Source: Actinomycetospora succinea (lineage in GTDB: Bacteria; Actinomycetota; Actinomycetes; Mycobacteriales; Pseudonocardiaceae). From it: DNA of 64,000 nt. The number at the start of each line of letters is the position of its first letter. The first letter of the stretch is position 1. Below are positions 13,794-62,506 of the stretch, piece by piece. The stretch covers positions 62,001-126,000 of the forward strand of contig NZ_SNYO01000014.1 in the NCBI RefSeq assembly GCF_004363095.1, given 5' to 3'. A program made the position numbers and the translations under genes. Below the pieces are notes generated by a model. It did not search any database. It saw only the letters and a program-made list of their open reading frames with translations, and was not told the DNA's origin.

Positions 13794-15119
13794 TCAGGCC
13801 GGCGGCGTCACCTGGACGACGACGACGGCCGCGTCGTCGTCGTTCGAGACGGCGCGCGTGTGGTGGTGCACCGCCGCGACGAGGGTGGCGGCGACCTGCT
13901 CGGGGTCCTGGCCGGCCGTCGTCGCGAGGGCGTCGCGCACGCCGGGCTCGTCGAACTGGCGGCCCCCGGGGTCCCTGGCCTCGGTGATGCCGTCGGTGTA
14001 GAAGACGAGCGCGTCACCGGGGCGCAGGTCGACGACGTCGATCCCTGTGGGGTGGTCGGCGGTCAGGCCGAGGACGCGCCCGCCCCCGGGCCGCTGCTCG
14101 ACGGCGCCGTCGTGACGCCGGACGAAGGCGGGCGGGTGGCCCGCCCCGGCGATCACGACGGTCCAGCCGGTGTCGCTGCGGGTGAAGGTCGCGTAGACCG
14201 CGGTGACGAAGCTGCGGCCGGCGCCGAACCAGGACAGCAGGACCTCGTTGACGGTCGCGAGCACCGTCGTCGGGTCCCGCTCGGTATGCGCCGCCGTGCG
14301 CACCGCCGACCGGGCCATCGCCGTGGTGCGCGCGGCGGTGGGCCCCTTCCCGCACACGTCGCCGATCACCAGCCCGAAGCCGTCGGGGACGGGGAGGACG
14401 TCGTAGAAGTCGCCGAGGACGTCCACCCCGGTCCCGCCCGGGGCGAAGTGGGTGGCGATCGCGACGCCGGGGATGCGGGGCGGGTGCAGGGGGAGCAGGG
14501 ACTCCTGGAGGGTCTGGGCGAGCTCGGCGGACTCCCGGGCGTAGATCTGCAGGTCGTGGACCGCCAGCCGCAGGGCGATCGCGTCGTTCGCCGCCGCGGC
14601 GAGCGTGCGCAGCGACTCGAGGTGTCCCTCGGTCCACGGCCGGACGCGGCCGTCCATGGCGCACAGGTTCCCGAGCACGTACCCGTCGGGATCCCGGATG
14701 GGGACGCCGATCCACGCGCGCGCCCCGAACGCCTTGATCTGCGCCAGGTCGCGCAGGCGGGGGTCGGCGGCGGTGTCCTCGACGACGATCTCCTCGCCGA
14801 TGTCCACGATCACCTGGCAGGCCGCCTCCCGCGCGGGGACCTGCAGGGTGCCGTCGGGGCCGACCATGGCGGCCGAGTCGGGCGCGCCCTTGAGGAACGA
14901 GCGCACGTCGTCGACGACCGTCATGTACGCCATCGGCGCGTCCAAGAGGGTCGCGGCCAGGCTGCACAACCGGTCGAACGCCGCCTCCGGGCCGGTCTCG
15001 AGCAACCGGGTCGCCCGCACGGCAGCCGTCCGCGACGGGGACTCGACCCCCGTGCGTCCCGCCGTCACCGCTGCACTCACCCGCGCATCATCACAGACCG
15101 CCACGCTCGAGTCGGCCAT
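13794..15119 (-). CDS. GAF domain-containing SpoIIE/PP2C-type serine phosphatase
   Basis: A 441-residue soluble protein. A GAF domain spans about residues 35-190, with FGARAWIGVPIRDPDGYVLG and CAMDGRVRPW. A PPM/SpoIIE phosphatase domain follows from about residue 205: LQESLLPLHPPRIPGV, the metal-binding GDFYDV, VIGDVCGKGP, AGAGHPPAF and FYTDGITEAR. Members dephosphorylate anti-anti-sigma factors in partner-switching control, here gated by whatever binds the GAF domain. No anti-sigma kinase lies beside it. The ATG at 15119 was chosen because it just precedes the first conserved part; the open frame upstream is antisense to the ABC gene. Confidence 0.9.
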   Translation of the reverse strand: MADSSVAVCDDARVSAAVTAGRTGVESPSRTAAVRATRLLETGPEAAFDRLCSLAATLLDAPMAYMTVVDDVRSFLKGAPDSAAMVGPDGTLQVPAREAACQVIVDIGEEIVVEDTAADPRLRDLAQIKAFGARAWIGVPIRDPDGYVLGNLCAMDGRVRPWTEGHLESLRTLAAAANDAIALRLAVHDLQIYARESAELAQTLQESLLPLHPPRIPGVAIATHFAPGGTGVDVLGDFYDVLPVPDGFGLVIGDVCGKGPTAARTTAMARSAVRTAAHTERDPTTVLATVNEVLLSWFGAGRSFVTAVYATFTRSDTGWTVVIAGAGHPPAFVRRHDGAVEQRPGGGRVLGLTADHPTGIDVVDLRPGDALVFYTDGITEARDPGGRQFDEPGVRDALATTAGQDPEQVAATLVAAVHHHTRAVSNDDDAAVVVVQVTPPA

Positions 15120-15190
15120 GCGAGCGACCGTCCGAGGCGTCTGGGACGTCCGCCGACACGGGATCCACCAACGGGGTGATCGCCCCGGGC

Positions 15191-17113
15191 TCAGGCGACG
15201 TCGGTGCGCTCCTGCCGGAGCACCGCACCGTCGCGGAACCGGACCCCGTCGGCGCAGCGCGCCTCCACCTGGCCCGCGCCGAACTGCTCGGCGTAGAGCT
15301 TCGCGTAGAGCCCGCCCTGCGCCAGCAGCTCCGCGTGGGTGCCGTGCTCCACGAGGCGGCCGCCGTCCATCGCGAAGATGACGTCCGCGGCGAGCACGGT
15401 CGAGAGCCGGTGCGCGATCGCGATGGTGGTGCGACCGGACATCACCGTCTCGAGCGCGTGCTGGACGAGGCGCTCGCTGACGGTGTCCAGCGCCGAGGTG
15501 GCCTCGTCGAGGATCAGGATTCGGGGGTTCGCGAGGATGACGCGGGCGATGGCCAGGCGCTGCTTCTCGCCCCCGGACAGGCGGTAGCCCCGCTCGCCGA
15601 CCACCGTCTCGTAGCCCGCCTCGAAGCCGACGATCCGGTCGTGGATGTTCGCCGCCCGGGCGGCCGCCTCGAGCTCGGCGTCGGTCGCGTCGGGGGCGGC
15701 GTAGCGCAGGTTCTCGGCGATCGTGGCGTGGAAGAGGTAGGTGTCCTGGGTGACCATCCCGATGACCTGCGCCAACGACGCCTGGGTCAGGTCCCGTACG
15801 TCGATCCCGTCGAGGCACACGGCGCCCCGGTCGACGTCGTAGAGCCGGGGCACGAGGTACGACAGGCTCGTCTTCCCGGCGCCGCTGGGTCCGACGACGG
15901 CGGCGAGCTGCCCGGGCTCGATCAGCAGCGACAGGTCCTGCAGCGCCCAGGTCGGCTCGCGCTCCTCGTCGGGCTCGGCGCCCGTGTCCTCGTCCTCCTC
16001 GGAGCGCGGGTAGCCGAACCAGACCTCGCGGAACTCGACCGACCCCCGGGCGTGCTCCTTGTCCAGGACCCGGGCCCCGGGCGGGTCGGTGACGGCGGGG
16101 ACCAGGTCGAGGTAGGCGAAGATGCGCTGGAACAGGGCGAGCGAGGTCTGGACGTCGAGCGACACCCGCAGCAGCTGCACGGCGGGGAACAGCAGCCTGC
16201 TCTGCAGGGTGGTGAACGCGACGAGCGTGCCGGCCGACAGGAGCGCCGCGCCCGACCCCGCCCCGATGTAGCCCGCCACCAGGTAGACCGCGGCCGGGGT
16301 GATCGCGAAGAACGCCTGCACGACGGCGAAGAACGACTGGCCGGTCATGGTCTGGCGGACCTGGAGGTCGGTCTGCCGCGCGTTCTCGGCGCGGTAGCGC
16401 TCGATCTCGTGGTCCTGGCGCCCGAACACCTTCGCCAGCAGCACCCCCGACACCGACAGCGACTCCTGCGTGATCGCCGACATGTCCGACAGCGACGCCT
16501 GGGTGTTCGCCGCGACCTTCCGCCGGACCCGCCCGACCCGGATCTGCAGCACGATGAACACGGGCATGAGCACGAACGCGACCAGCGAGAGCTGCCACGA
16601 CAGCGCCAGCATCGCGATCACCGACGCGACGACGGTGACGACGTTGCCCAGGATCGACGACGCGGTCTCGGTGACCACCGACTGCACGCCGGCGACGTCG
16701 TTGTCCAGCCGCGACTGGATCACGCCGGTCTTCGTGGACGTGAAGAAGCCCAGGTGCATGCGCTGGAGGTGGGCGAACAGCCGGTCCCGCAGGCCCTGCA
16801 TGACGCGGTTGCCGAGCACGGTCGTCAGGTAGGTCTGCCCGACGCCGATGAGCCCGGAGACCAGGGCGATCACGATCATCGCCGCGACGAGGACCGTGAG
16901 CAGCCCGAGGCGGGGCCCGTCCGGGGCGAACAGGGCGTCGTCGAACACGGCCTGCGTGAGGAACGGGTTGGCGATGCCGAGCCCGGCGGTCACGAGGATC
17001 GCCAGGCCGATCAGGAGCAGGCGTCGCCGGTAGGGCGCGAACAGCGCGACGACCCGCCGTCCCAGCGGCGTCTCGTCGGCGGCCGTGCCCGCCGGTGCTG
17101 TGGTGGTGACCAT
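15191..17113 (-). CDS. ABC transporter, fused permease/ATP-binding (multidrug exporter-like)
   Basis: A 640-residue half-transporter with an N-terminal six-helix membrane domain (about residues 25-330) and a C-terminal ATPase. The ATPase shows Walker A VGPSGAGKTS, Q-loop VTQDTYLF, signature LSGGEKQRLAIAR, Walker B ILILDEATSALD and the switch His in AIAHRLST. A mainly acidic linker insertion with EEDEDTGAEPDEERE sits just before the ATPase core. I prefer the ATG at 17113 because GAGG lies eight bases upstream. It probably works as a homodimer exporting lipids or drugs. It is divergent from the KASIII-like gene. Confidence 0.93.
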   Translation of the reverse strand: MVTTTAPAGTAADETPLGRRVVALFAPYRRRLLLIGLAILVTAGLGIANPFLTQAVFDDALFAPDGPRLGLLTVLVAAMIVIALVSGLIGVGQTYLTTVLGNRVMQGLRDRLFAHLQRMHLGFFTSTKTGVIQSRLDNDVAGVQSVVTETASSILGNVVTVVASVIAMLALSWQLSLVAFVLMPVFIVLQIRVGRVRRKVAANTQASLSDMSAITQESLSVSGVLLAKVFGRQDHEIERYRAENARQTDLQVRQTMTGQSFFAVVQAFFAITPAAVYLVAGYIGAGSGAALLSAGTLVAFTTLQSRLLFPAVQLLRVSLDVQTSLALFQRIFAYLDLVPAVTDPPGARVLDKEHARGSVEFREVWFGYPRSEEDEDTGAEPDEEREPTWALQDLSLLIEPGQLAAVVGPSGAGKTSLSYLVPRLYDVDRGAVCLDGIDVRDLTQASLAQVIGMVTQDTYLFHATIAENLRYAAPDATDAELEAAARAANIHDRIVGFEAGYETVVGERGYRLSGGEKQRLAIARVILANPRILILDEATSALDTVSERLVQHALETVMSGRTTIAIAHRLSTVLAADVIFAMDGGRLVEHGTHAELLAQGGLYAKLYAEQFGAGQVEARCADGVRFRDGAVLRQERTDVA

Positions 17114-17225
17114 CGCCGTCCTCGGGTTCCTGCTCGGGCGCACTCGACGGTCTCGGATGATCCGCCGCGCAGCGGAGTCCCGCAGCCCTCGCGCTCTCTA
17201 GGGTGGGCTTCTGAGGGGGTGGGCC

Positions 17226-19190
17226 GTGAAGCCGTTCGTCATCAACCGCCGGGGCCGTCTCGTCTTCCCGGCCAACTTCTTCGGCGAGCTGGACTTCACG
17301 GTCCTCGACACGCTCGAGCAGTTCACCGCGGTCATCGAGCGGGACTTCGAGGCGAAGGCCCCGACGGGCACCGACATCCTCCACCGGGTGGAGAGCGGCT
17401 CCTACCCGACCCGCTTCGAGCTGCTGCGCGACCTCGGCCAGAACCTGTTCTGGGTCAACCGGTACTCGATGACGATGTTCGACAAGCGTCCGACACGGTG
17501 GCGCGACGTCCCCCGGCACCGCGACGACGTCTTCCTCCCGGTGCTGACCCCGTGGGAGGACCGCGAGCGCAAGGTCGCGGCGGTCGAGCGCGCCTACCAG
17601 GAGCTGCCGGCGCGCTGGGCCGCCGACGCCGAGGACCGTGTCTTCGCCCTGCTCTTCGACGTGTTCCGGCACAAGCTCCACCACGCCACCGAGCTCCCCG
17701 CGATCAAGCCGACCGTCGCCGAGTTCCTCGAGCAGCCCGACGCGCTGACCTTCGTCATGCCCGACCACGACCCCGACCACCACCTCTTCCCGGTCGACGA
17801 GATCTTCGACGCCGACGAGGAGGTGCCCGAGCTCGAGGCGCTGATGCGCTGGTCGATGGTGCTGCACAACCTGTATCCGTGGGACGGCTCGCGCACGACG
17901 CTGCGCCACCCGGCCGACATCGGGCCGGACGACTTCGTCGTCACGTTCCACCCGCGCGACCGCGAGGTCGCGGCGTTCATCGACCGGGTCAAGCAGGCCC
18001 GCGCGACGGGTGCCCGCACGACGACCACGTCGACGCCGGTCGAGGCGGTACCGCCCCGCACGCCGTTCCCGCCGGTGCGGGTGCGCGAGGCCTTCCGGGT
18101 GCGGCCCGCGCTGGAGGCCCTGGCGATCGTGCGCGGCGAGCACGTCTGCGACAACGTCGACGTCATCCGCAACGCCAGCTTCTCGTGGTCGCCGATGAGC
18201 GCGGACGAGATCGCCCGCAAGACCGGGATCCGCCAGCGGCGCTACACGGCCCGCGAGCCCCACCACCTGGCGCTGGACGCCGCGCGGGCGGCGCTCGCGA
18301 AGTCCGGCCGGGCGCCCGCCGAGATCGGCGCGGTCCTGGTCAGCACCTGCACCAGCAACCGTCAGATCCCCTCCATCGCCACGTGGGTGTCGGGCGAGCT
18401 GGGGCTGGCGCAGACCCACACGTCGATGGACATGGTCGCCGCCTGCGCCGGGCTGCCCTACGGGCTCGCCGAGGCCGTCCGGCAGATCCAGGAGGTCGAG
18501 CGGCCCGTGCTGCTGGTGTGCGTCGAGAAGTTCTCGGACAAGATCGGGAGCGCGCGCACGTCCAGGATGATCTTCGGGGACGGCGCGGCGGCGATGGTCG
18601 TGGCCCCGGCCGCCGACGGCGCCCCGGTGGACGTCGAGGTGCTGCAGACCTACGCCAGCGGGCCGGTGTCGGAGGTCAACTCGATCATCTGGCCGAACCC
18701 GGAGTTCGACAACGACATCACCGTCTACGGGCCCGAGGTCAAGTCGCTGGTCCAGCGCTACCTGGACCAGATGCTCGGCGAGCTCTCCGAGCAGACCGAC
18801 CCCGACGACCCCGGCCGCAGCCTGCTCGACAGCATCGAGCTCATCGTCCCGCACCAGGCCAACAAGACGATGATCCTCGACCTGGCCGCGAAGGCCGGGC
18901 TCTCGGAGGACCAGCTCTACTTCGACATCGAGTCCGTGGGCAACGTGTCGGCCGCGAGCATCCCGATCGCCCTCCACGACGCCGTCCGCGACGGGGCGAT
19001 CGGCCGCCCGACGAGGGTCTTCGCCCCCGGCTTCGGGGCCGGCGCCGTCGGCGGCTACGCGGTGCTCCGCCTCGACCCGGCGATCGTCGCCGACGAGGTG
19101 GTGCTCGACCCCGTCGAGACCGACCGCGCGGCCCCGGCGCCCCAGACCCGGACGACGACCGACGACGTCCGCGTGGCCTTCGGCGAGTAG
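17226..19190 (+). CDS. KASIII-like 3-oxoacyl-ACP synthase with extra N-terminal domain
   Basis: A 654-residue two-part protein. The C-terminal half, from about residue 300, is a thiolase-fold FabH relative. The catalytic triad is intact: Cys407 in MVAACAGLPYG, His543 in IVPHQANKTM and Asn573 in SVGNVSAASIP, with family-like spacing. MIFGDGAAAMVV is also present. The first roughly 265 residues form a His- and Asp-rich domain I do not recognise (FVMPDHDPDHHLF, FHPRDREVAAF), joined by a Thr-rich linker. The GTG start follows a strong GAGGGGG site. It probably condenses an acyl-CoA in a specialised lipid route with the hotdog genes 28 bases downstream. Confidence 0.85.
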   Translation: MKPFVINRRGRLVFPANFFGELDFTVLDTLEQFTAVIERDFEAKAPTGTDILHRVESGSYPTRFELLRDLGQNLFWVNRYSMTMFDKRPTRWRDVPRHRDDVFLPVLTPWEDRERKVAAVERAYQELPARWAADAEDRVFALLFDVFRHKLHHATELPAIKPTVAEFLEQPDALTFVMPDHDPDHHLFPVDEIFDADEEVPELEALMRWSMVLHNLYPWDGSRTTLRHPADIGPDDFVVTFHPRDREVAAFIDRVKQARATGARTTTTSTPVEAVPPRTPFPPVRVREAFRVRPALEALAIVRGEHVCDNVDVIRNASFSWSPMSADEIARKTGIRQRRYTAREPHHLALDAARAALAKSGRAPAEIGAVLVSTCTSNRQIPSIATWVSGELGLAQTHTSMDMVAACAGLPYGLAEAVRQIQEVERPVLLVCVEKFSDKIGSARTSRMIFGDGAAAMVVAPAADGAPVDVEVLQTYASGPVSEVNSIIWPNPEFDNDITVYGPEVKSLVQRYLDQMLGELSEQTDPDDPGRSLLDSIELIVPHQANKTMILDLAAKAGLSEDQLYFDIESVGNVSAASIPIALHDAVRDGAIGRPTRVFAPGFGAGAVGGYAVLRLDPAIVADEVVLDPVETDRAAPAPQTRTTTDDVRVAFGE

Positions 19191-19218
19191 CCGGCCGTCA
19201 CGGACAGGGAGGCCGCCC

Positions 19219-19626
19219 GTGGGAAGGGTCGCTCAGGAGTTCGCGGACGTCCCCTACGAGGACCTCGAGCCGGGCGTGGTCCGCACGACGACCCACCGCC
19301 TCGACCCCTCGCTCGTCGCCGAGTACGAGCGACTCGTGGGCCCCTCGCCGGACGGCTCGGTCTCGCCGTGGGTCTTCTGCACCTTCCTGCCCATGTACCG
19401 GGCCCTCGGCGGGCGCATGGAGCAGGGATCGATCCACACCCGCCAGCGGATGGTCGAGCACCGTCCGGTGTCGGTCGGAGCGACGCTCACCGTCGAGCTG
19501 CGGGTGCTGGAGAAGATCGAGGAAGGGGGTCGACGGCACGTGACGCTCGAGATCGTCTTCGCGGACGAGGCCGGTCCGGTCTGTTCCTCCACCGGTACCT
19601 ACCTGTGGGGACACGCCACCCGATGA
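19219..19626 (+). CDS. Hotdog-fold protein, FAS1-like dehydratase N-half type
   Basis: A 135-residue protein with GTG start. VPYEDLEPGVVRTTTHRLDP, then SPWVFCTFLPMYRALGG, then an HTRQRMVEHRPVSVGATL segment, fit the non-catalytic MaoC/FAS1-like dehydratase half that pairs with a catalytic hotdog partner. No HxD catalytic motif is present. Its ATGA overlap with the next gene, also a hotdog protein, strongly suggests a heterodimer. With the KASIII-like enzyme it could shape a beta-hydroxyacyl intermediate. Confidence 0.72.
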   Translation: MGRVAQEFADVPYEDLEPGVVRTTTHRLDPSLVAEYERLVGPSPDGSVSPWVFCTFLPMYRALGGRMEQGSIHTRQRMVEHRPVSVGATLTVELRVLEKIEEGGRRHVTLEIVFADEAGPVCSSTGTYLWGHATR

Positions 19627-20057
19627 CCCCGGCGGACCCCGTGCTCGCCGTCGTGCGGCGGACCTTCACCCAGGACGACATCGACGCCTTCGGGCACGTC
19701 AGCGGCGGCACCGGCCACATCCACACGGACCCGGAGTTCGCGGCGGCGACCCCGTTCGGTCGCACCCTGGTCCAGGGCCTGTACCTCCTGGCTCTGGTCG
19801 AGAGGGCCGTCGCCGAGGCCGCGCCGGGTCGGCACGAGGTGTCGGTCCGGTTCGTCGCGCCCGTGGGCGTCGGCGACGAGTTCCGGGTCGAGGTCCGTGA
19901 CCACCCCGACTCGCCGGGAGACCTGGCGATCACGGCCTCCGTGGGGGAGCGGACCGCGGTGGTGGGCACGGCGACCAGGGCCCCGGAGGTCACTCCTCCA
20001 GCAGCGCGCGCAGGCGGAACTTCTGAATCTTCGTCGCCGACATCGGCCAGCTGGTGA
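19623..20057 (+). CDS. MaoC-like hotdog protein with altered catalytic motif
   Basis: A 144-residue hotdog protein. FTQDDIDAFGHVSGGTGHIHTDPEFA matches the region in R-specific enoyl-CoA hydratases where SGDxNPxHxD carries the Asp-His dyad; here the stretch reads SGGTGHIHTD, so the His is kept but the Asp and Asn are glycines. FGRTLVQGLYLL is the usual following helix. The start overlaps the previous hotdog gene by four bases. Its last 68 bases overlap the end of the convergent CoA ligase gene, so the C-terminal tail (rich in Ser, Thr and Ala) may be weakly constrained. Confidence 0.75.
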   Translation: MTPADPVLAVVRRTFTQDDIDAFGHVSGGTGHIHTDPEFAAATPFGRTLVQGLYLLALVERAVAEAAPGRHEVSVRFVAPVGVGDEFRVEVRDHPDSPGDLAITASVGERTAVVGTATRAPEVTPPAARAGGTSESSSPTSASW

Positions 20058-21639
20058 CGAAGCGGATCTCCCGCGGCACCTTGTAGGACGCGAGGTCGCC
20101 GCGGCAGAAGGCGATGAGGTCGGCTCCCGTGCACTCCGCGCCGTCCGTGGTCTCGACGAACGCCACCGGCACCTCGCCGTAGCGCGCCGACGGGCGGCCG
20201 ACGATCTGGGCCATCCGGACCTCGGGGTGCGTGCTCAGGAGGGCCTCGACCTCGAGCGGCGAGACGTTCTCCCCGCCGACCTTGAGCACGTCCTTCCTCC
20301 GGCCGAGGAAGAGCAGGGAGCCGTTCGCGTTCAGGCTCCCGGAGTCGCCGGTGCGCACCCAGCCGCCGGGGAGGATCGTCGCGGCCGTGGCCTCGGGGTC
20401 GCGGTAGTAGGCGCGGAAGGCGTTCACGCCCCGGAACTGGATCTCGCCGGGCGCGTCGACGGGCACGAGCGTCTCGGGGGCGTCGGGATCGGCGATGCGC
20501 ACCTCGATCCCGGGGATCGGGTTGCCGTTGCGTCCGAGCCGGTCGCCCTCCGGCTCGTCGAGCGCCGTCGCGGTGATCATGCCGGCGCCCTCGGTCATGC
20601 CGAAGTCGGTGAGCAGCGTCGCCTCGGCGGGCAGCAGCGCCTGGATCATCTCCTGGGTCTCGCGCGGCGCCACGTTGAGGACCGTGCGCACCGAGCGCAG
20701 CCGCTCAGGGGCGTATCCGGGGGCGCGCAGGAGCCCGAGCGTCAGCGGCGGGAACGCCGGGAACAGGTGCTCCGCGTGCCGGCGTTCGATGTGCTCGAGC
20801 GCGACCTCGGGATCGAAGTGGCTCATCGACATCACCGCGGCGCCGCGGACGAGCGCCGAGACGGTGGGTCCGATCCCGCCGACGTGGAAGAAGGGGCACG
20901 GGGTCCACATCGCCTCGCCCCGCCGCAGCCCGACGACGTCGGCGAACGCCGACCAGCTGCCGCGCAGCGCGCGGTGGGTCAGCTCGCAGCCCTTGGGGTC
21001 GGCGGTCGTCCCGGAGGTGTAGAGCAGGACGGCGGTGTCGTCGGCGGTCCTCGCGTGGGTGGCCGCGGTGACCGCGTCGTCGGGGACCCCGCGTCCCGCC
21101 TCGATCAGCCCGGGGAGGGGCGCGGCGAACGGCACCTCCTTGGCGCCGTCGAGGTAGATGCGGCGCAGACGCGGCGCGCCTGCCGCGGTCACGGTGCCGT
21201 CGGGGCCCGGGCGCAGGTCCGGCAGCGCCTCGGACACGAGCGCGGTGAAGTCGGTGTGCTCGTCGACGGCGTCGGTGGTGACGAGGAGCTCGGCGTCGCA
21301 CCGGCCCAGGACGTAGCTCAGCTCGCGGCGCTTGAAGCGGGCGTTCAGGGGGACGAGGACGCCGCCCGCGAGGTGCACCCCGAACAGGAGCTCGACGTAG
21401 GTCGGCGAGTTGGTCATGAGGGCCGCGACGTGGCCGCCCGGGCGCAGCCCCGCGGCGATCAGACCCTTCGCCATCGCGACCGCGCGCCGCAGGAACGCCG
21501 CGTAGGTCAGGTCGACGTCCGGGAAGGACACGAAGGTCAGGTCGGGGTGCTCCTCGGCCCGGTGCACCAGCTCGACGGCCAGCGTGCCCTCGGTCGTCGC
21601 GGTGGCCCGCTCTCCACCGCCCGGCAGTGCCGACACCAT
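19990..21639 (-). CDS. AMP-dependent acyl-CoA ligase
   Basis: A 549-residue ANL-superfamily acid-CoA ligase. The phosphate-binding motif is LLYTSGTTADPKGCELTH, the adenine motif region reads TDFGMTEGAG, WVRTGDSGSL holds the catalytic Asp, and the hinge and C-terminal lysine region read GRRKDVLKVGGENVSP and TKIQKF. The ATG at 21639 was chosen because GGAGG lies six bases upstream. It is divergent from the unknown 347-residue gene at 21747 and converges on the KASIII/hotdog genes. It may activate the acid that feeds or leaves that set. Confidence 0.9.
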   Translation of the reverse strand: MVSALPGGGERATATTEGTLAVELVHRAEEHPDLTFVSFPDVDLTYAAFLRRAVAMAKGLIAAGLRPGGHVAALMTNSPTYVELLFGVHLAGGVLVPLNARFKRRELSYVLGRCDAELLVTTDAVDEHTDFTALVSEALPDLRPGPDGTVTAAGAPRLRRIYLDGAKEVPFAAPLPGLIEAGRGVPDDAVTAATHARTADDTAVLLYTSGTTADPKGCELTHRALRGSWSAFADVVGLRRGEAMWTPCPFFHVGGIGPTVSALVRGAAVMSMSHFDPEVALEHIERRHAEHLFPAFPPLTLGLLRAPGYAPERLRSVRTVLNVAPRETQEMIQALLPAEATLLTDFGMTEGAGMITATALDEPEGDRLGRNGNPIPGIEVRIADPDAPETLVPVDAPGEIQFRGVNAFRAYYRDPEATAATILPGGWVRTGDSGSLNANGSLLFLGRRKDVLKVGGENVSPLEVEALLSTHPEVRMAQIVGRPSARYGEVPVAFVETTDGAECTGADLIAFCRGDLASYKVPREIRFVTSWPMSATKIQKFRLRALLEE

Positions 21640-21665
21640 CGCGACCTCCACGGCCGAGCGCCAAA

Positions 21666-21746: not shown

Positions 21747-22790
21747 ATGCGCTACCACGTGTACCTGGAGGGCGAACCCACGCTGGAGTCCTACCGGCTG
21801 AGCCACCGGCCGCGGGAGGACTACGCCCCCGTCTTCATCTGCCCGTTCGTCGTCCTCACCGACTCCTCGGGCCGGCTCTACAACGCCATGCGCGGCATCC
21901 AGGGCCAGAACAAGAACGAGACCCTGAACATGGGCGTCTACCGCCTCGACGGTCGCCTCGACGCCCAGTGCCCCGTCCTGTTCCCCTACGCCGAGAACCC
22001 GATCACCGAGCGGTACCGGGTGACGGAGACCGCCGACGCGGTGAGCTACGTCGGGGAGACGTGGCGCTACGACTTCGGGGTGAGCGACTACCGCTGGGTG
22101 GACGGCTCGGGTCGTCTCGACCTGACCGCGCGGCGGCTCGGCCAGGTCTGCACGTTCTGGGTGCCCGAGCAGGAGGGCTACGAGTACCCGCAGATGCTGC
22201 GCTCCCACCTCGGCAAGGCCACCGGCACGCTCGACGGCGAGCCCGTCGAGGGCCTGTTCATGCTCGACTACATCTACAGCAGGCCCGACGCGATGTGGAA
22301 CGAGATGGGCATGCTCAGCAAGCTCCACAACGTGTGGCTGAACTGGCTCGTCGAGTACGAGGACGGGTCGTACGAGGGCGGCTACGCCTGGCGCGGTCGC
22401 CCGGGCACGGGGTTCGCGGCCGCGCACCAGGTGGTGGACGGGGTGAGCACCGCCCGCAGCGACGCGAGCGTGTCGACCCACTTCACCGAGCGCGGCACGG
22501 TCACCAAGGTCGACCTCGCGCTCGGGGCGGACGCCTCCCTGACGCTCGAGCAGTTCGGGTCGACCGACTGGCCGCTGCACACGTGCGGCACGGTCAGCTC
22601 CGCGGGCGCCGGCAAGACGATCGCCCGCAGCTGGAACTACACGGAGTTCTTCCCGCTGAACTGGAGCGCCGTGGCCGACTACCAGGCCGCCCACCACGCG
22701 CTCTACGGCCGGCGGCCCTCGTTCGCGCGACTGATGGAGGGCGCGCGGATCGAGGACCAGCGACTGGTGTTCCCGCGGGAGAGCGCCTGA
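21747..22790 (+). CDS. Conserved-looking protein of unknown function, possible lipocalin-like fold
   Basis: A 347-residue protein I cannot name. It has no signal peptide or membrane segment and is rich in aromatic residues (many Trp and Tyr), with alternating beta-strand-like patterns such as RYRVTETADAVSYVGETWRY and YEDGSYEGGYAWRGRPG. This recalls the two-domain lipocalin-like proteins related to carotenoid hydratase CrtC and AttH, but that is a weak pattern match. There are four cysteines. It is divergent from the CoA ligase across a palindromic region, so it may belong to the same lipid or terpenoid pathway. Codon use matches its neighbours. Confidence 0.6.
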   Translation: MRYHVYLEGEPTLESYRLSHRPREDYAPVFICPFVVLTDSSGRLYNAMRGIQGQNKNETLNMGVYRLDGRLDAQCPVLFPYAENPITERYRVTETADAVSYVGETWRYDFGVSDYRWVDGSGRLDLTARRLGQVCTFWVPEQEGYEYPQMLRSHLGKATGTLDGEPVEGLFMLDYIYSRPDAMWNEMGMLSKLHNVWLNWLVEYEDGSYEGGYAWRGRPGTGFAAAHQVVDGVSTARSDASVSTHFTERGTVTKVDLALGADASLTLEQFGSTDWPLHTCGTVSSAGAGKTIARSWNYTEFFPLNWSAVADYQAAHHALYGRRPSFARLMEGARIEDQRLVFPRESA

Positions 22791-44728: not shown

Positions 44729-46288
44729 ATGCCGCCTCTGCCCGAGCCGGACCACGACGCGCTGACGGCGGTCTCCGCCGGCTACGGGCTCGGGCTCTCG
44801 GCCGACGAGATCGGCGAGTACCACCCCGCGGTCACCGGGCTGCTGGGGTCGTGGGACGTCGTCGCCGAGCTCTACGAGGCCGAGGCGCCGGCGGTCCCGG
44901 AGCGCGCCTGGTCGCGGCCCGACCGACCCGACAACCCGTACAACGCCTGGTACGTGCAGACGTCGATCACCGAGTCGTCCTCCGGCCCGCTCGCCGGCCG
45001 CACGGTCGCGATCAAGGACAACACCGCGGTGGCCGGGGTCCCGATGACCAACGGCTCGGACACCGTCCAGGGCTTCGTCCCGAGCACCGACGCGACGATC
45101 GTGCGCCGCCTGCTCGACGCGGGCGCGACGATCGCGGGCAAGGCCGTGTGCGAGGACCTGTGCTTCGCCGGCGCCTCGATCACCGCGAACACCGGCGACG
45201 TCGAGAACCCCTGGGACCCGAGCCGGACCGCGGGCGGGTCGTCGAGCGGCAGCGGCGCGCTGGTCGCGGCGGGCCTGGTGGACATGGCCACGGGCGGCGA
45301 CCAGGGCGGCTCGATCCGCATCCCGGCCGCGAACTGCGGGCTCGTCGGGCACAAGCCGACCTGGGGCCTGGTGCCCTACACCGGCGCGTTCCCCATCGAG
45401 TTCACGATCGACCACGTCGGCCCGATCACCCGCACCGTCGGCGACGCCGCGCTCATGCTCCAGGTGATCGCCGGGCTCGACGGCCACGACCCCCGCCAGC
45501 CCGCCGACCTCCGGCCCGACGACTACCTCGGCGCGCTGGCGCAGGGTGCCCGCGGCCTGCGGGTGGGCGTGCTGGGCGAGGGGTTCGGGCTCGCCGAGTC
45601 CGAGCCGGAGGTCGACGACACGGTCCGCGCCGCGACGCGCGCGCTGGCCGACGCCGGCCTCGACGTCCGCGACGTGTCGGTGCCCTGGCACCTGCACGGG
45701 CCCAAGATCTGGGACGTCATCGCCACCGAGGGTGCGACGTCCCAGATGATCGAGACGTCCGGGTACGGCCTGAACTGGAAGGGGCTCTACGACCCGGAGC
45801 TGATGCACCACTACGGCGCGCAGTGGGCCGCCGACCCGACCGCGTTCTCCCGCACCGTGAAGTTCGTGCTGCTCGCGGGCCGCTACAGCCTCGACACCAC
45901 CCACGGCCGGCACTACGCGATGGCCCGCAACCTCGCGCCGAAGCTCGCCGCCGCCTACGACGCGGCGCTCGCCGACGTCGACGTGCTGGTGCTGCCGACC
46001 CTGCCGCAGCGGGCGACGGTGCGCCCCGACCGCGACGGTCCCGTCGTCGAGACGCTGGGCCGCGCGCTGGAGATGCTGGCCAACACCGCGCCGTTCGACG
46101 TCACCGGCCACCCGGCGTGCTCGGTGCCCGCAGGCCTCGCCGGCGGGCTGCCCGTCGGGATGATGATCGTCGGGCGCCAGTTCGACGACGCGACCGTCCT
46201 GCGCGTCGCCCACGCCTTCGAGGAGGCCGTCGGCGGCTTCCCCGCCCCGGCCGGCGCACCCGCCGCGGCCCCTGTTCCCACGGCCTGA
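44729..46288 (+). CDS. Amidase of the nitrile hydratase pathway (amidase signature family)
   Basis: A 519-residue amidase. Numbered from the ATG at 44729, which follows GAGGAG, the Ser-cisSer-Lys triad is Lys96 (VAIKDN), Ser171 (AGGSSSGSG) and Ser195 (QGGSIRIPA). These are the same numbers as in the characterised Rhodococcus N-771 amidase, which strongly supports both start and family. It hydrolyses amides formed by nitrile hydratase to acid and ammonia. An extended N-terminal dimerisation part of about 80 residues is present. The nitrile hydratase beta gene begins 25 bases downstream. Confidence 0.95.
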   Translation: MPPLPEPDHDALTAVSAGYGLGLSADEIGEYHPAVTGLLGSWDVVAELYEAEAPAVPERAWSRPDRPDNPYNAWYVQTSITESSSGPLAGRTVAIKDNTAVAGVPMTNGSDTVQGFVPSTDATIVRRLLDAGATIAGKAVCEDLCFAGASITANTGDVENPWDPSRTAGGSSSGSGALVAAGLVDMATGGDQGGSIRIPAANCGLVGHKPTWGLVPYTGAFPIEFTIDHVGPITRTVGDAALMLQVIAGLDGHDPRQPADLRPDDYLGALAQGARGLRVGVLGEGFGLAESEPEVDDTVRAATRALADAGLDVRDVSVPWHLHGPKIWDVIATEGATSQMIETSGYGLNWKGLYDPELMHHYGAQWAADPTAFSRTVKFVLLAGRYSLDTTHGRHYAMARNLAPKLAAAYDAALADVDVLVLPTLPQRATVRPDRDGPVVETLGRALEMLANTAPFDVTGHPACSVPAGLAGGLPVGMMIVGRQFDDATVLRVAHAFEEAVGGFPAPAGAPAAAPVPTA

Positions 46289-46313
46289 TCCGTCACCAGC
46301 GAACGGAGACCCG

Positions 46314-47006
46314 ATGAACGGCATCCACGACCTCGGCGGCCGCGACGGGCTCGGCCCGATCAACCCGACGCCCGCCGAGCCGGTGTGGAAGGCGGAGTGG
46401 GAGAAGCACGCCCACACCTTCTTCCCGCTCGCGTTCAGGGCCGGCTTCTTCGGCGTCGACCAGTTCCGGTTCGGCATGGAGCAGATCGAGCCGGTCGAGT
46501 ACCTGACCTCGACGTACTACGAGCACTGGGTCCACTCGGTGGTCCACCACGGCGTGCGGCACGGCCAGCTCGACCCCACCGAGATCGAGAAGCGCACGCA
46601 GTACTACCTGGAGAACCCCGACGCGCCGCTGCCGGAGGGCAAGGACCCCGAGGGTGAGCTGGTCGCGTTCCTCGAGGCCGTCATCCCGGCCGGTGCTCCC
46701 GCCGGTCGCGACACCGGCAAGAAGGCGAAGTTCGCCGTCGGCGACCGCGTCACCGTCGTCGCCGACGCCCCCAAGGGCCACACCCGGAGGGCGGGCTACA
46801 TCCGCGGCAAGACCGGGGTCATCGACCTCGCCCACGGCGAGATGATCTACCCGGACACCGCGGGCAACGACCGGGGCGAGGCGCCCGAGCACGTCTACAC
46901 CGTCCGCTTCACCAACGAGGAGCTCTGGGGCGCCGAGGAGGCCGAGCCGAACGGCTCGGTGACCTTCGACGTCTGGGAGCCCTACATCGTCCCCGCGAAG
47001 AGCTGA
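46314..47006 (+). CDS. nthB: Nitrile hydratase beta subunit
   Basis: A 230-residue beta subunit. The conserved opening [35 protein letters not shown] and [19 protein letters not shown] (SH3-like barrel of the C-terminal half) are all present. It forms the alpha/beta heterodimer that hydrates nitriles to amides in the cytosol. The order beta then alpha is that of cobalt enzymes (Pseudonocardia thermophila, Rhodococcus J1). It lies 25 bases after the amidase and 13 before the alpha subunit. Confidence 0.97.
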
Positions 47007-47019
47007 GGAGCGCCGACCC

Positions 47020-47622
47020 ATGAGCGCACCCGAGAGGGCCACCCAGGCGGAGATCGCCGCCCGGGTCAAGGCCATCGAGTCCATCATGATCGAGAAGGGC
47101 CTGATGACCACCGAGGCGGTGGACCGGCTCGCGGAGATCTACGAGAACGAGGTCGGCCCGCAGCTCGGCGCGAAGGTCGTCGCGAAGGCCTGGACCGACC
47201 CCGACTTCAGGAAGCGGCTGCTCGCGAACGCCACCGAGGCCTGCGCGGAGCTGGGCATCGGCGGACTGCAGGGCGAGGACATGGTCGCCGTCGAGGACAC
47301 CGACGACATCCACCACGTCATCGTCTGCACGCTGTGCTCCTGCTACCCGTGGCCGGTCCTGGGCCTGCCGCCGAACTGGTACAAGATGCCGCAGTACCGG
47401 GCGAGCCTGGTCCGCGCGCCGCGCCGGGTACTGCGCGAGGAGTTCGGCTACGACGTGCCCGAGTCGGTCGAGATCCGCGTGTGGGACTCCAGCTCGGAGC
47501 TGCGCTACTGGGTGCTGCCGCAGCGCCCGGCGGGCACGGACCGCATGACCGAGGACGAGCTGGCGGCGCTGGTCACCCGCGACTCGATGATCGGCGTGGG
47601 GCCGACGAAGGCCGCGGCGTGA
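47020..47622 (+). CDS. nthA: Nitrile hydratase alpha subunit, cobalt type
   Basis: A 200-residue alpha subunit with the metal-binding loop [17 protein letters not shown]. The ligands are Cys103, Cys106, Ser107 and Cys108. Thr104 and Tyr109 are the residues found in cobalt enzymes, whereas iron enzymes have Ser and Thr there. In relatives two of the cysteines are oxidised to sulfinic and sulfenic acids. The sequence continues to the usual length. The activator gene overlaps the stop by four bases (GTGA). Confidence 0.97.
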
Positions 47623-48038
47623 GCTCGCCCCTCCGGGAGGAGAGCGAGCTCGGCGAGGCCCGCCGGCGCGTCGAGTCGCTGGTCGCGGGCACGCCGGGCG
47701 GTGACGGCGAGGCGTCGTTCCGCGAGCCGTGGGAGCTGCGCGCCTTCTCCCTCGCGGTCGCGGCGTACCACGCCGGCCAGTACGAGTGGTCGGAGTTCCA
47801 GCTCTCGCTCATCGCGTCGATCCGGCGGTGGGAGGCCGACGGCGCCGACGAGGCGGAGGCGCCGTGGAGCTATTACGAGCACTGGCTGACGGCGCTCGAG
47901 ACGGTGCTCGCCGGCAACGGGCTGCTCTCCGAGGCCGACCTGGACGAGCGCACCCGCGCGGTCCTCGCGACCCCGCGCAACGCGAACCACCACGAGGCGC
48001 ACCGGGAGCCGGTGGCGATCGACCCGGCGGTGCGCTGA
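47619..48038 (+). CDS. Nitrile hydratase activator / maturation protein (NhlE, P14K-like)
   Basis: A 139-residue accessory protein. Its part [27 protein letters not shown] and [22 protein letters not shown] resemble the N-terminal half of the beta subunit ([20 protein letters not shown]). This is expected for the cobalt-type activator that carries apo-alpha and inserts cobalt by subunit swapping. The GTG start overlaps the alpha stop by four bases. It converges on the small gene at 48046. Confidence 0.9.
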
Positions 48039-61751: not shown

Positions 61752-62506
61752 GCCGGGTCGCGCTGATCACCGGGGGCAACCGCGGCCTCGGCCGTGCCGC
61801 CGCGGAGGCCCTCGCCGACGACGGCGTCGACGTCGTCCTCACCTACCGCTCGCGCCCGGAGGAGGCCGACGCGGTCGTCGCCGACCTCGAGAAGCGGGGG
61901 CGGCGGGCCGCGGCGCTGCGCCTCGACGTCACCGAGCACGACGCGTTCCCGGCGTTCGTCGAGACGCTCGCGCGGGAGCTGCGGGGCCGTTGGGGGCGCG
62001 AGGACCTCGACGTCCTCGTCAACAACGGCGGGTACGAGGGCAACACGCCGTTCGGCGGGATCGACGCCGCGACCGTCGACGCGCTCTACGCCGTCCACCT
62101 GCGCGGACCGATCCTGCTCACCGACCTCCTGGCGCCGCGGATCCGCGACGGCGGGCGGGTGGTGTTCGTGTCGACGGGTCTGACCCGCTACGCCGCGAAC
62201 CCGCTGTTCTCGGTGTACGCGGCGATGAAGGGCGGCATCGAGGTCTACACGAAGTACGCCGCCAAGGCCCTCGGCCCGCGCCGCATCACCGTGAACGTCC
62301 TCGCGCCCGGCGCCACCGCGACCGACATCGGCGGCGGGCTGATCCGCGACGACGAGCGCTACCGCGCCATGATCACAGCGAACCACGCCTTCGGTCGCGT
62401 CGGCGAGCCCGACGACATCGGCGGCGCCCTGCGCGCCATCACCGCCGAGAGCGCCGGCTGGATCACCGCGCAGCGCGTCGAGGCGTCGGGCGGGCAGATG
62501 CTGTAG
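61748..62506 (+). CDS. SDR family oxidoreductase
   Basis: A 252-residue classical SDR with GTG start (GTGA overlap with the ligase). The cofactor loop is TGGNRGLGRAAAE, the NAG motif reads NNGGYEG, the catalytic Ser is in VFVSTGLT, and YAAMK stands for YxxxK. The C-terminus ITAQRVEASGGQML is usual. It closes the operon, probably reducing or oxidising the CoA-activated intermediate. Confidence 0.91.
   Translation: MSRVALITGGNRGLGRAAAEALADDGVDVVLTYRSRPEEADAVVADLEKRGRRAAALRLDVTEHDAFPAFVETLARELRGRWGREDLDVLVNNGGYEGNTPFGGIDAATVDALYAVHLRGPILLTDLLAPRIRDGGRVVFVSTGLTRYAANPLFSVYAAMKGGIEVYTKYAAKALGPRRITVNVLAPGATATDIGGGLIRDDERYRAMITANHAFGRVGEPDDIGGALRAITAESAGWITAQRVEASGGQML

Follow-up and report, generated by a model that had tools for sequence, protein, structure and literature searches.

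In the textbook pathway, synthesis of polyhydroxybutyrate (PHB) begins with a reversible thiolase. FabH, a β-ketoacyl-acyl carrier protein (ACP) synthase III (KASIII), docks ACP via the Arg of an HQANxR motif (R249 in the E. coli numbering), and the gene of NphT7 from Streptomyces sp. CL190 sits in a mevalonate cluster. Here, we analyse a 64,000-nucleotide stretch of DNA from Actinomycetospora succinea (positions 62,001 to 126,000 of the forward strand of contig NZ_SNYO01000014.1; hereafter the window), which encodes a KASIII protein with an additional N-terminal domain. Judging from its sequence and from the loci of its relatives, this protein is probably an acetoacetyl-coenzyme A (CoA), or 3-oxoacyl-CoA, synthase that feeds synthesis of polyhydroxyalkanoates (PHA) without a thiolase. 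NphT7 together with PhaB and PhaC made PHB in an engineered strain of the cyanobacterium Synechocystis (PMC3899235), and a further paper (PMC8231600) cites the use in E. coli of an engineered FabH combined with PhaC. A study on NphT7 gives the loss of the ACP-binding Arg as the presumed reason for its absent KASIII activity, and links its AGGSR motif to CoA recognition (PMC5432608). For a natural KASIII-based PHA pathway we found no report, only engineered use, among the listed open-licence papers of PubMed Central (PMC).

The KASIII protein is the product of an open frame at 17226-19190 on the forward strand (GTG start, 654 aa), which divides as follows:

17226..18011, forward strand: N-terminal domain (N-domain), residues 1-262 of the KASIII protein, alpha/beta with no recognised fold
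18012..18080, forward strand: variable linker, residues 263-285, with a conservation of 0.46 over residues 256-285 and a lower predicted local distance difference test score (pLDDT) there
18081..19076, forward strand: KASIII condensing domain of the FabH fold, residues 286-617, with the triad Cys407, His543, Asn573 and with Thr548 at the position of the FabH ACP-docking Arg
19077..19190, forward strand: C-terminal tail, residues 618-654, and stop, poorly conserved and with a pLDDT of about 50 from residue 631

A preliminary description of the locus had proposed a KASIII enzyme preceded by an additional N-terminal domain and possessing a full Cys407/His543/Asn573 triad, and both proposals hold. 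The C-terminal half of the open frame matches Pfam ACP_syn_III (E 4e-11) and ACP_syn_III_C (E 2e-21) as well as FabH chains in the Protein Data Bank (PDB), and all 60 aligned relatives retain the triad unchanged. The window protein has the Cys-His-Asn triad and the thiolase-fold domain of the KASIII/FabH family. In many relatives the match to the window KASIII stops near residue 622. Differences from FabH lie in the extra N-domain, in scores below the NCBIfam FabH cut-offs (145.6 bits versus 292.1 for TIGR00747, 176.5 versus 249 for NF006829) and in the ACP-docking residue: none of the 60 aligned sequences has Arg at this position of HQANxR, where we find T (35), N (16), S (4), P (3) or K (2) instead. 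The KASIII triad and the lost Arg are shared with NphT7, and the window family is predicted, like NphT7, to make acetoacetyl-CoA from malonyl-CoA and acetyl-CoA. The window family differs from NphT7 in its 262-residue N-domain, in the missing AGGSR motif, in having loci in several phyla with a fusion to a reductase in Acidobacteria, and in that its relatives adjoin carboxylase, reductase and PHA synthase genes. Two further open frames, of 1,727 aa (13794-18977, reverse strand) and 1,455 aa (15176-19543, forward strand), overlap the ATP-binding cassette (ABC) transporter and KASIII genes; in our view they arise merely from the 72-75% G+C content.

We surveyed the neighbours of KASIII in the best 80 of 119 related loci, with flanks of up to 8 kb, often shorter, in which genes were called by a crude codon-usage caller. 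Upon clustering of the called flank genes, proteins of about 1,840 aa, about 255 aa (short-chain dehydrogenase, SDR) and about 548 aa recurred. Among the scanned neighbours were a biotin carboxylase, biotin carrier, ACC_central and carboxyltransferase in one chain (locus L045), an SDR (L023) and a PHA synthase with a PhaC_N domain (L044). A single-chain acetyl-CoA-carboxylase-like protein was present in 44 of the 80 loci, 39 of them with the gene within 400 bases of KASIII, a FabG/PhaB-type SDR reductase in 52 and a PHA synthase (PhaC) in 27, and at least one of these three or a separate carboxyltransferase was found in 62. Such partners accompany KASIII in all loci from Pseudonocardiales (23/23), Geodermatophilaceae (24/24), Acidobacteria (9/9) and Micrococcaceae (2/2), and in four single metagenome-assembled genomes (MAGs) or bins that are otherwise labelled. 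With one PhaA-like query from the window's genome, no thiolase scoring at least 90 bits turned up in the 80 flanks; that genome does encode thiolases at other places. Some of the relatives thus resemble phaCAB and phaEC loci in carrying a FabG/PhaB-like reductase, a class I-like or III-like PhaC, PhaR and phasin-like genes, but no thiolase was detected with that single probe, its place being taken by KASIII with either a carboxylase or a carboxyltransferase. The single-chain carboxylase of the family measures about 1,840-1,890 aa, the L045 orthologue having ACC_central as in eukaryotic acetyl-CoA carboxylase (ACC), and we found no paper on a single-chain bacterial ACC in the open-licence PMC literature.

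In all nine acidobacterial loci, the frame of N-domain and KASIII continues into an SDR (888-900 aa), and in a database search from one of these fusions the KASIII and SDR domains occurred together in 112 of the best 120 listed proteins of at least 700 aa. Because the reductase is fused to KASIII in 9 of 9 acidobacterial loci, the conserved next step after KASIII is, on this sequence evidence, ketoreduction. The usual destination of the product appears to be PHA. A carboxyltransferase is present in six of the nine loci, a biotin carrier in eight, PhaC in six, a phasin-like frame in six and a PhaR-like gene in four, and five loci combine carboxyltransferase, PhaC and phasin-like frame. The genes of L089 run from a PYC_OADA/HMGL-like frame through carboxyltransferase, biotin carrier, methylmalonyl-CoA mutase and a major facilitator superfamily (MFS) transporter to KASIII-SDR, followed by PhaC, a PhaE-like frame just below the Pfam cut-off, an unmatched 195-aa frame, which we take for a phasin, a PHB_acc_N regulator and an SDR. 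The simplest reading of the acidobacterial loci would be condensation, then reduction, then polymerisation.

We infer the substrates, the direction and the flux of the KASIII reaction as follows. The two-domain KASIII would condense acetyl-CoA, or perhaps a different short acyl-CoA, with malonyl-CoA, using CoA instead of ACP as carrier, and release acetoacetyl-CoA (3-oxoacyl-CoA) and CO2. In Actinobacteria, malonyl-CoA would be supplied by the single-chain carboxylase; in Acidobacteria it is a biotin-dependent carboxyltransferase that lies beside KASIII. A FabG/PhaB-type reductase would turn 3-oxoacyl-CoA into (R)-3-hydroxyacyl-CoA, and PHA synthase would polymerise the latter. KASIII would in this way stand in for the PhaA thiolase, with decarboxylation driving the reaction forward.

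The N-domain (approximately residues 1-262) is predicted with confidence (pLDDT 91.8) and is matched by 3,464 database proteins. Its fold, which the preliminary description did not recognise, has indeed no credible counterpart among those we compared. The window N-domain has no Pfam match, 70 members gave just three single-member matches (E 0.047-0.067), PDB sequences gave no credible match, and neither did a comparison of the model with the PDB (Foldseek, VIA) or with viral models (Foldseek); when the full-length model was used in VIA, the best 50 rows listed all fell on the KASIII domain. With its confident model and no credible PDB match, the domain would be worth solving. Residues invariant in both alignments include N7, D23, R39, D40, K44, Y60, R68, W76, R79, K87, E136, E204 and R208. 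The domain had been called His/Asp-rich, but nothing functional corresponds to this: no His is invariant in either alignment (H214 is found in 57 of 60), and a metal enzyme was set aside on the same ground. A stand-alone N-domain was also set aside: the best 120 of 598 matches in a search of short proteins measured 190-508 aa, and most of these 120 are taken for fragments, one of them (P0169) having a non-KASIII Pfam domain, PF02653. As a guess, the N-domain may serve docking, channelling or regulation, the first two on behalf of the carboxylase or the reductase. The broader proposal, namely a natural thiolase-free PHA pathway in several phyla that is driven by malonyl-CoA through KASIII and in which the novel-fold N-domain couples KASIII to carboxylase or reductase, is tentative, and we rate it a little short of even.

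Genomes without linkage were examined for the same partners. The window's genome encodes elsewhere a single-chain carboxylase (G000:C10; L106:6937-12600) that is 76% identical to the Pseudonocardia one, and a class I-like PhaC (G000:C3), and 17 of the 18 loci with no linked partner lie in genomes with PhaC. A PhaC_N profile finds PhaC in the six Actinomycetospora, in three proteobacterial MAGs and in one of nine Rokubacteria, while a class III PhaC query finds it in eight of the nine Rokubacteria (one partial), including the one positive for PhaC_N; for these eight the class III PhaC model gives the highest score, though none reaches the curated cut-off of that model. Among 200 genomes of the family, PhaC is present in 12 of 12 that are KASIII-positive (E<=1e-40) versus 30 of 188 that are negative (Fisher p 1.8e-9, uncorrected for ancestry); at the level of genera, KASIII is found in 3 of 46 and PhaC in 10 of 46. 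Since the carboxyltransferase part of the single-chain carboxylase has matches in 167 of the 200 genomes, mere presence of the carboxylase is uninformative for co-occurrence, and the carboxylase lineage was used. In a tree from which two duplicate rows had been dropped beforehand, the carboxylases of ten genomes of the window's genus form two lineages with 100/100 support for each genus branch (L119-L123, L155-L159), looking as if one had replaced the other. The Pseudonocardia-type, KASIII-linked lineage occurs in 4 of 4 KASIII-positive versus 1 of 6 KASIII-negative genomes of the genus (p 0.024, again uncorrected for ancestry). For the window's strain itself we infer the role from orthology, the partners being present and unlinked.

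A number of observations weigh against an acetoacetyl-CoA synthase that feeds PHA synthesis. The neighbour counts from the 80 loci are not independent, many of these being congeners and some MAG labels possibly wrong. Neither a carboxylase nor a reductase nor PhaC adjoins KASIII in the window, and no linked partner was found in Actinomycetospora (six loci), Rokubacteria (nine) or three proteobacterial MAGs. In the window's genome a FabG/PhaB-like SDR lies near a thiolase (G000:C2), so that a classical route exists there. PhaC is present in all ten genus genomes drawn, with or without KASIII, one Rokubacteria MAG has no PhaC by either the PhaC_N profile or the class III query, three KASIII-negative genomes of genus g5 share the Pseudonocardia-type carboxylase lineage, and one KASIII-positive family genome (G168) yields no match to the carboxylase when a strict cut-off is applied. 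The AGGSR motif of NphT7 is found in 0 of the 60 aligned sequences; in our reading the family would work like NphT7, but membership in its subfamily does not follow, as this motif is absent. The SDR half of two scanned fusions is below the cut-off for acetoacetyl-CoA reductase. Lastly, a query search found no biotin carboxylase in the nine acidobacterial flanks (L081, L087-L091, L093-L095), and the PYC_OADA/HMGL-like frame, carboxyltransferase, biotin carrier and methylmalonyl-CoA mutase upstream of the fusion in L089 (L089:622-6347) amount to a transcarboxylase-like set. These two findings make the source of malonyl-CoA in Acidobacteria ambiguous: it may come from a carboxylase, a transcarboxylase or elsewhere.

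The L089 set may point to a different carboxyl donor, or to PHA units that are branched or C5. The main rival is an equally CoA-based KASIII using methylmalonyl-CoA as extender or propionyl-CoA as starter, which would give 3-hydroxy-2-methylbutyrate or 3-hydroxyvalerate units in PHA. Among PDB entries, the acidobacterial carboxyltransferase most resembles methylmalonyl-CoA carboxyltransferase 12S and propionyl-CoA carboxylase, and in L089 it lies with methylmalonyl-CoA mutase and the PYC_OADA/HMGL-like frame. Nonetheless we regard this alternative as unlikely. The single-chain carboxylase of Actinobacteria, which has ACC_central and has eukaryotic ACC chains among its PDB matches, speaks against it, but weakly: those chains match its biotin-carboxylase half, and its top PDB match is a methylcrotonyl-CoA carboxylase subunit. 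The position that we take, on an assumed alignment and meaning, to be the propionyl-specific Asp422 of PccB is Ile in L089 and Val in the L045 chain.

Next in rank, and also improbable, is a role of KASIII at the start of ordinary fatty-acid, polyketide or secondary-lipid synthesis, bound to ACP or to CoA, with PHA genes as coincidental neighbours. ACC, KASIII and a ketoreductase also begin fatty-acid synthesis, the fused reductase of two scanned proteins scores above a curated FabG cut-off (TIGR01830), just 27 of the 80 loci have PhaC within range, and no PHA genes lie near the Rokubacteria KASIII. Such a role sits poorly with the complete loss of the ACP-docking Arg (60/60), with the PhaC, PhaE-like, phasin-like and PhaR genes at acidobacterial loci, and with the presence of at least two other KASIII-domain homologues in the window's genome.

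Downstream of KASIII, the window contains the following features:

19219..19626, forward strand: hotdog A, small and weakly HadA-like (NCBIfam HadA E 3.3e-5, far under the cut-off)
19623..20057, forward strand: hotdog B, MaoC-like (Pfam MaoC E 3.9e-18, obtained with the longer enclosing frame 19368-20057)
19990..21651, reverse strand: acyl-CoA synthetase/ligase (Pfam AMP-binding), convergent with hotdog B and overlapping it by 68 bases
21747-22790, forward strand: 347-aa frame next to the ligase, which matches neither Pfam nor NCBIfam and was not found at the 80 KASIII loci of relatives

The preliminary description had joined KASIII to the hotdog pair and the ligase, reading the two hotdog genes as a dehydratase heterodimer. 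The convergent ligase is where it was placed, adjoining hotdog B, and both hotdog frames exist, the second being MaoC-like, but hotdog A matches no Pfam hotdog family. A dehydratase heterodimer is doubtful. The SGDxNPxH-type motif of MaoC/HadB dehydratases holds a catalytic Asp-His dyad, whereas hotdog B reads SGGTGHIH, with Gly where the catalytic Asp is expected; Asp is kept at this place in 11 of 11 MaoC-like matches fetched from the genus, which are part of a much longer list. The window thus resembles HadAB/MaoC-type pairs in having two small overlapping genes, the second MaoC-like, and differs from them in the Asp to Gly change, in the weak likeness of hotdog A to HadA and in neighbours that are not conserved. 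Elsewhere in 18 genomes of the genus, the best-scoring MaoC-like match to hotdog B reaches 45% identity. By tblastn, hotdog A, hotdog B, the ligase and the 347-aa gene lie beside KASIII in 0 of the 80 related loci: weak hotdog matches occur in L094 and L095 only, on a MaoC-phosphotransacylase (MaoC-PTB) protein, and in five loci the ligase finds a match (28-35%) at a distance of 4-7 kb from KASIII. Even in six Actinomycetospora loci with a KASIII 89-91% identical to that of the window, the hotdog/ligase block is absent, with the upstream ABC transporter (95%) kept in one. We therefore rejected the hotdog pair and ligase as a conserved context of KASIII, and hotdog A probably does not belong to a conserved system. 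Of the earlier claim that acyl-CoAs are condensed independently of ACP, the condensation itself draws support from the lost Arg and from the carboxylase and reductase neighbours, and the dehydrating system of hotdog pair and ligase is not supported. That KASIII, this pair as dehydratase and the ligase form a compact condensing and dehydrating pathway in the window's organism is very improbable: the 28-base gap from KASIII to hotdog A and the 4-base overlap of the hotdog genes do suggest co-transcription of the three in this strain, but the pair and ligase accompany KASIII in no relative and hotdog B has no catalytic Asp. Further along the window, at 44729-48038 (forward strand), lie frames that we take to resemble amidase and nitrile hydratase subunits, and in L021 frames whose N-termini are alike occur at 3-6 kb from KASIII.

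If KASIII is indeed an acetoacetyl-CoA synthase for PHA, a large family mostly named '3-oxoacyl-ACP synthase' or 'reductase' would gain a function, and the single-chain carboxylase and the fusion of KASIII and ketoreductase would be new parts for bioplastic or butanol engineering. It would also explain the PHA loci without a thiolase gene in Acidobacteria and Actinobacteria. These bacteria would spend ATP, via the carboxylase, and so make synthesis of their storage polymer irreversible, which is the same solution as in engineered use of NphT7.

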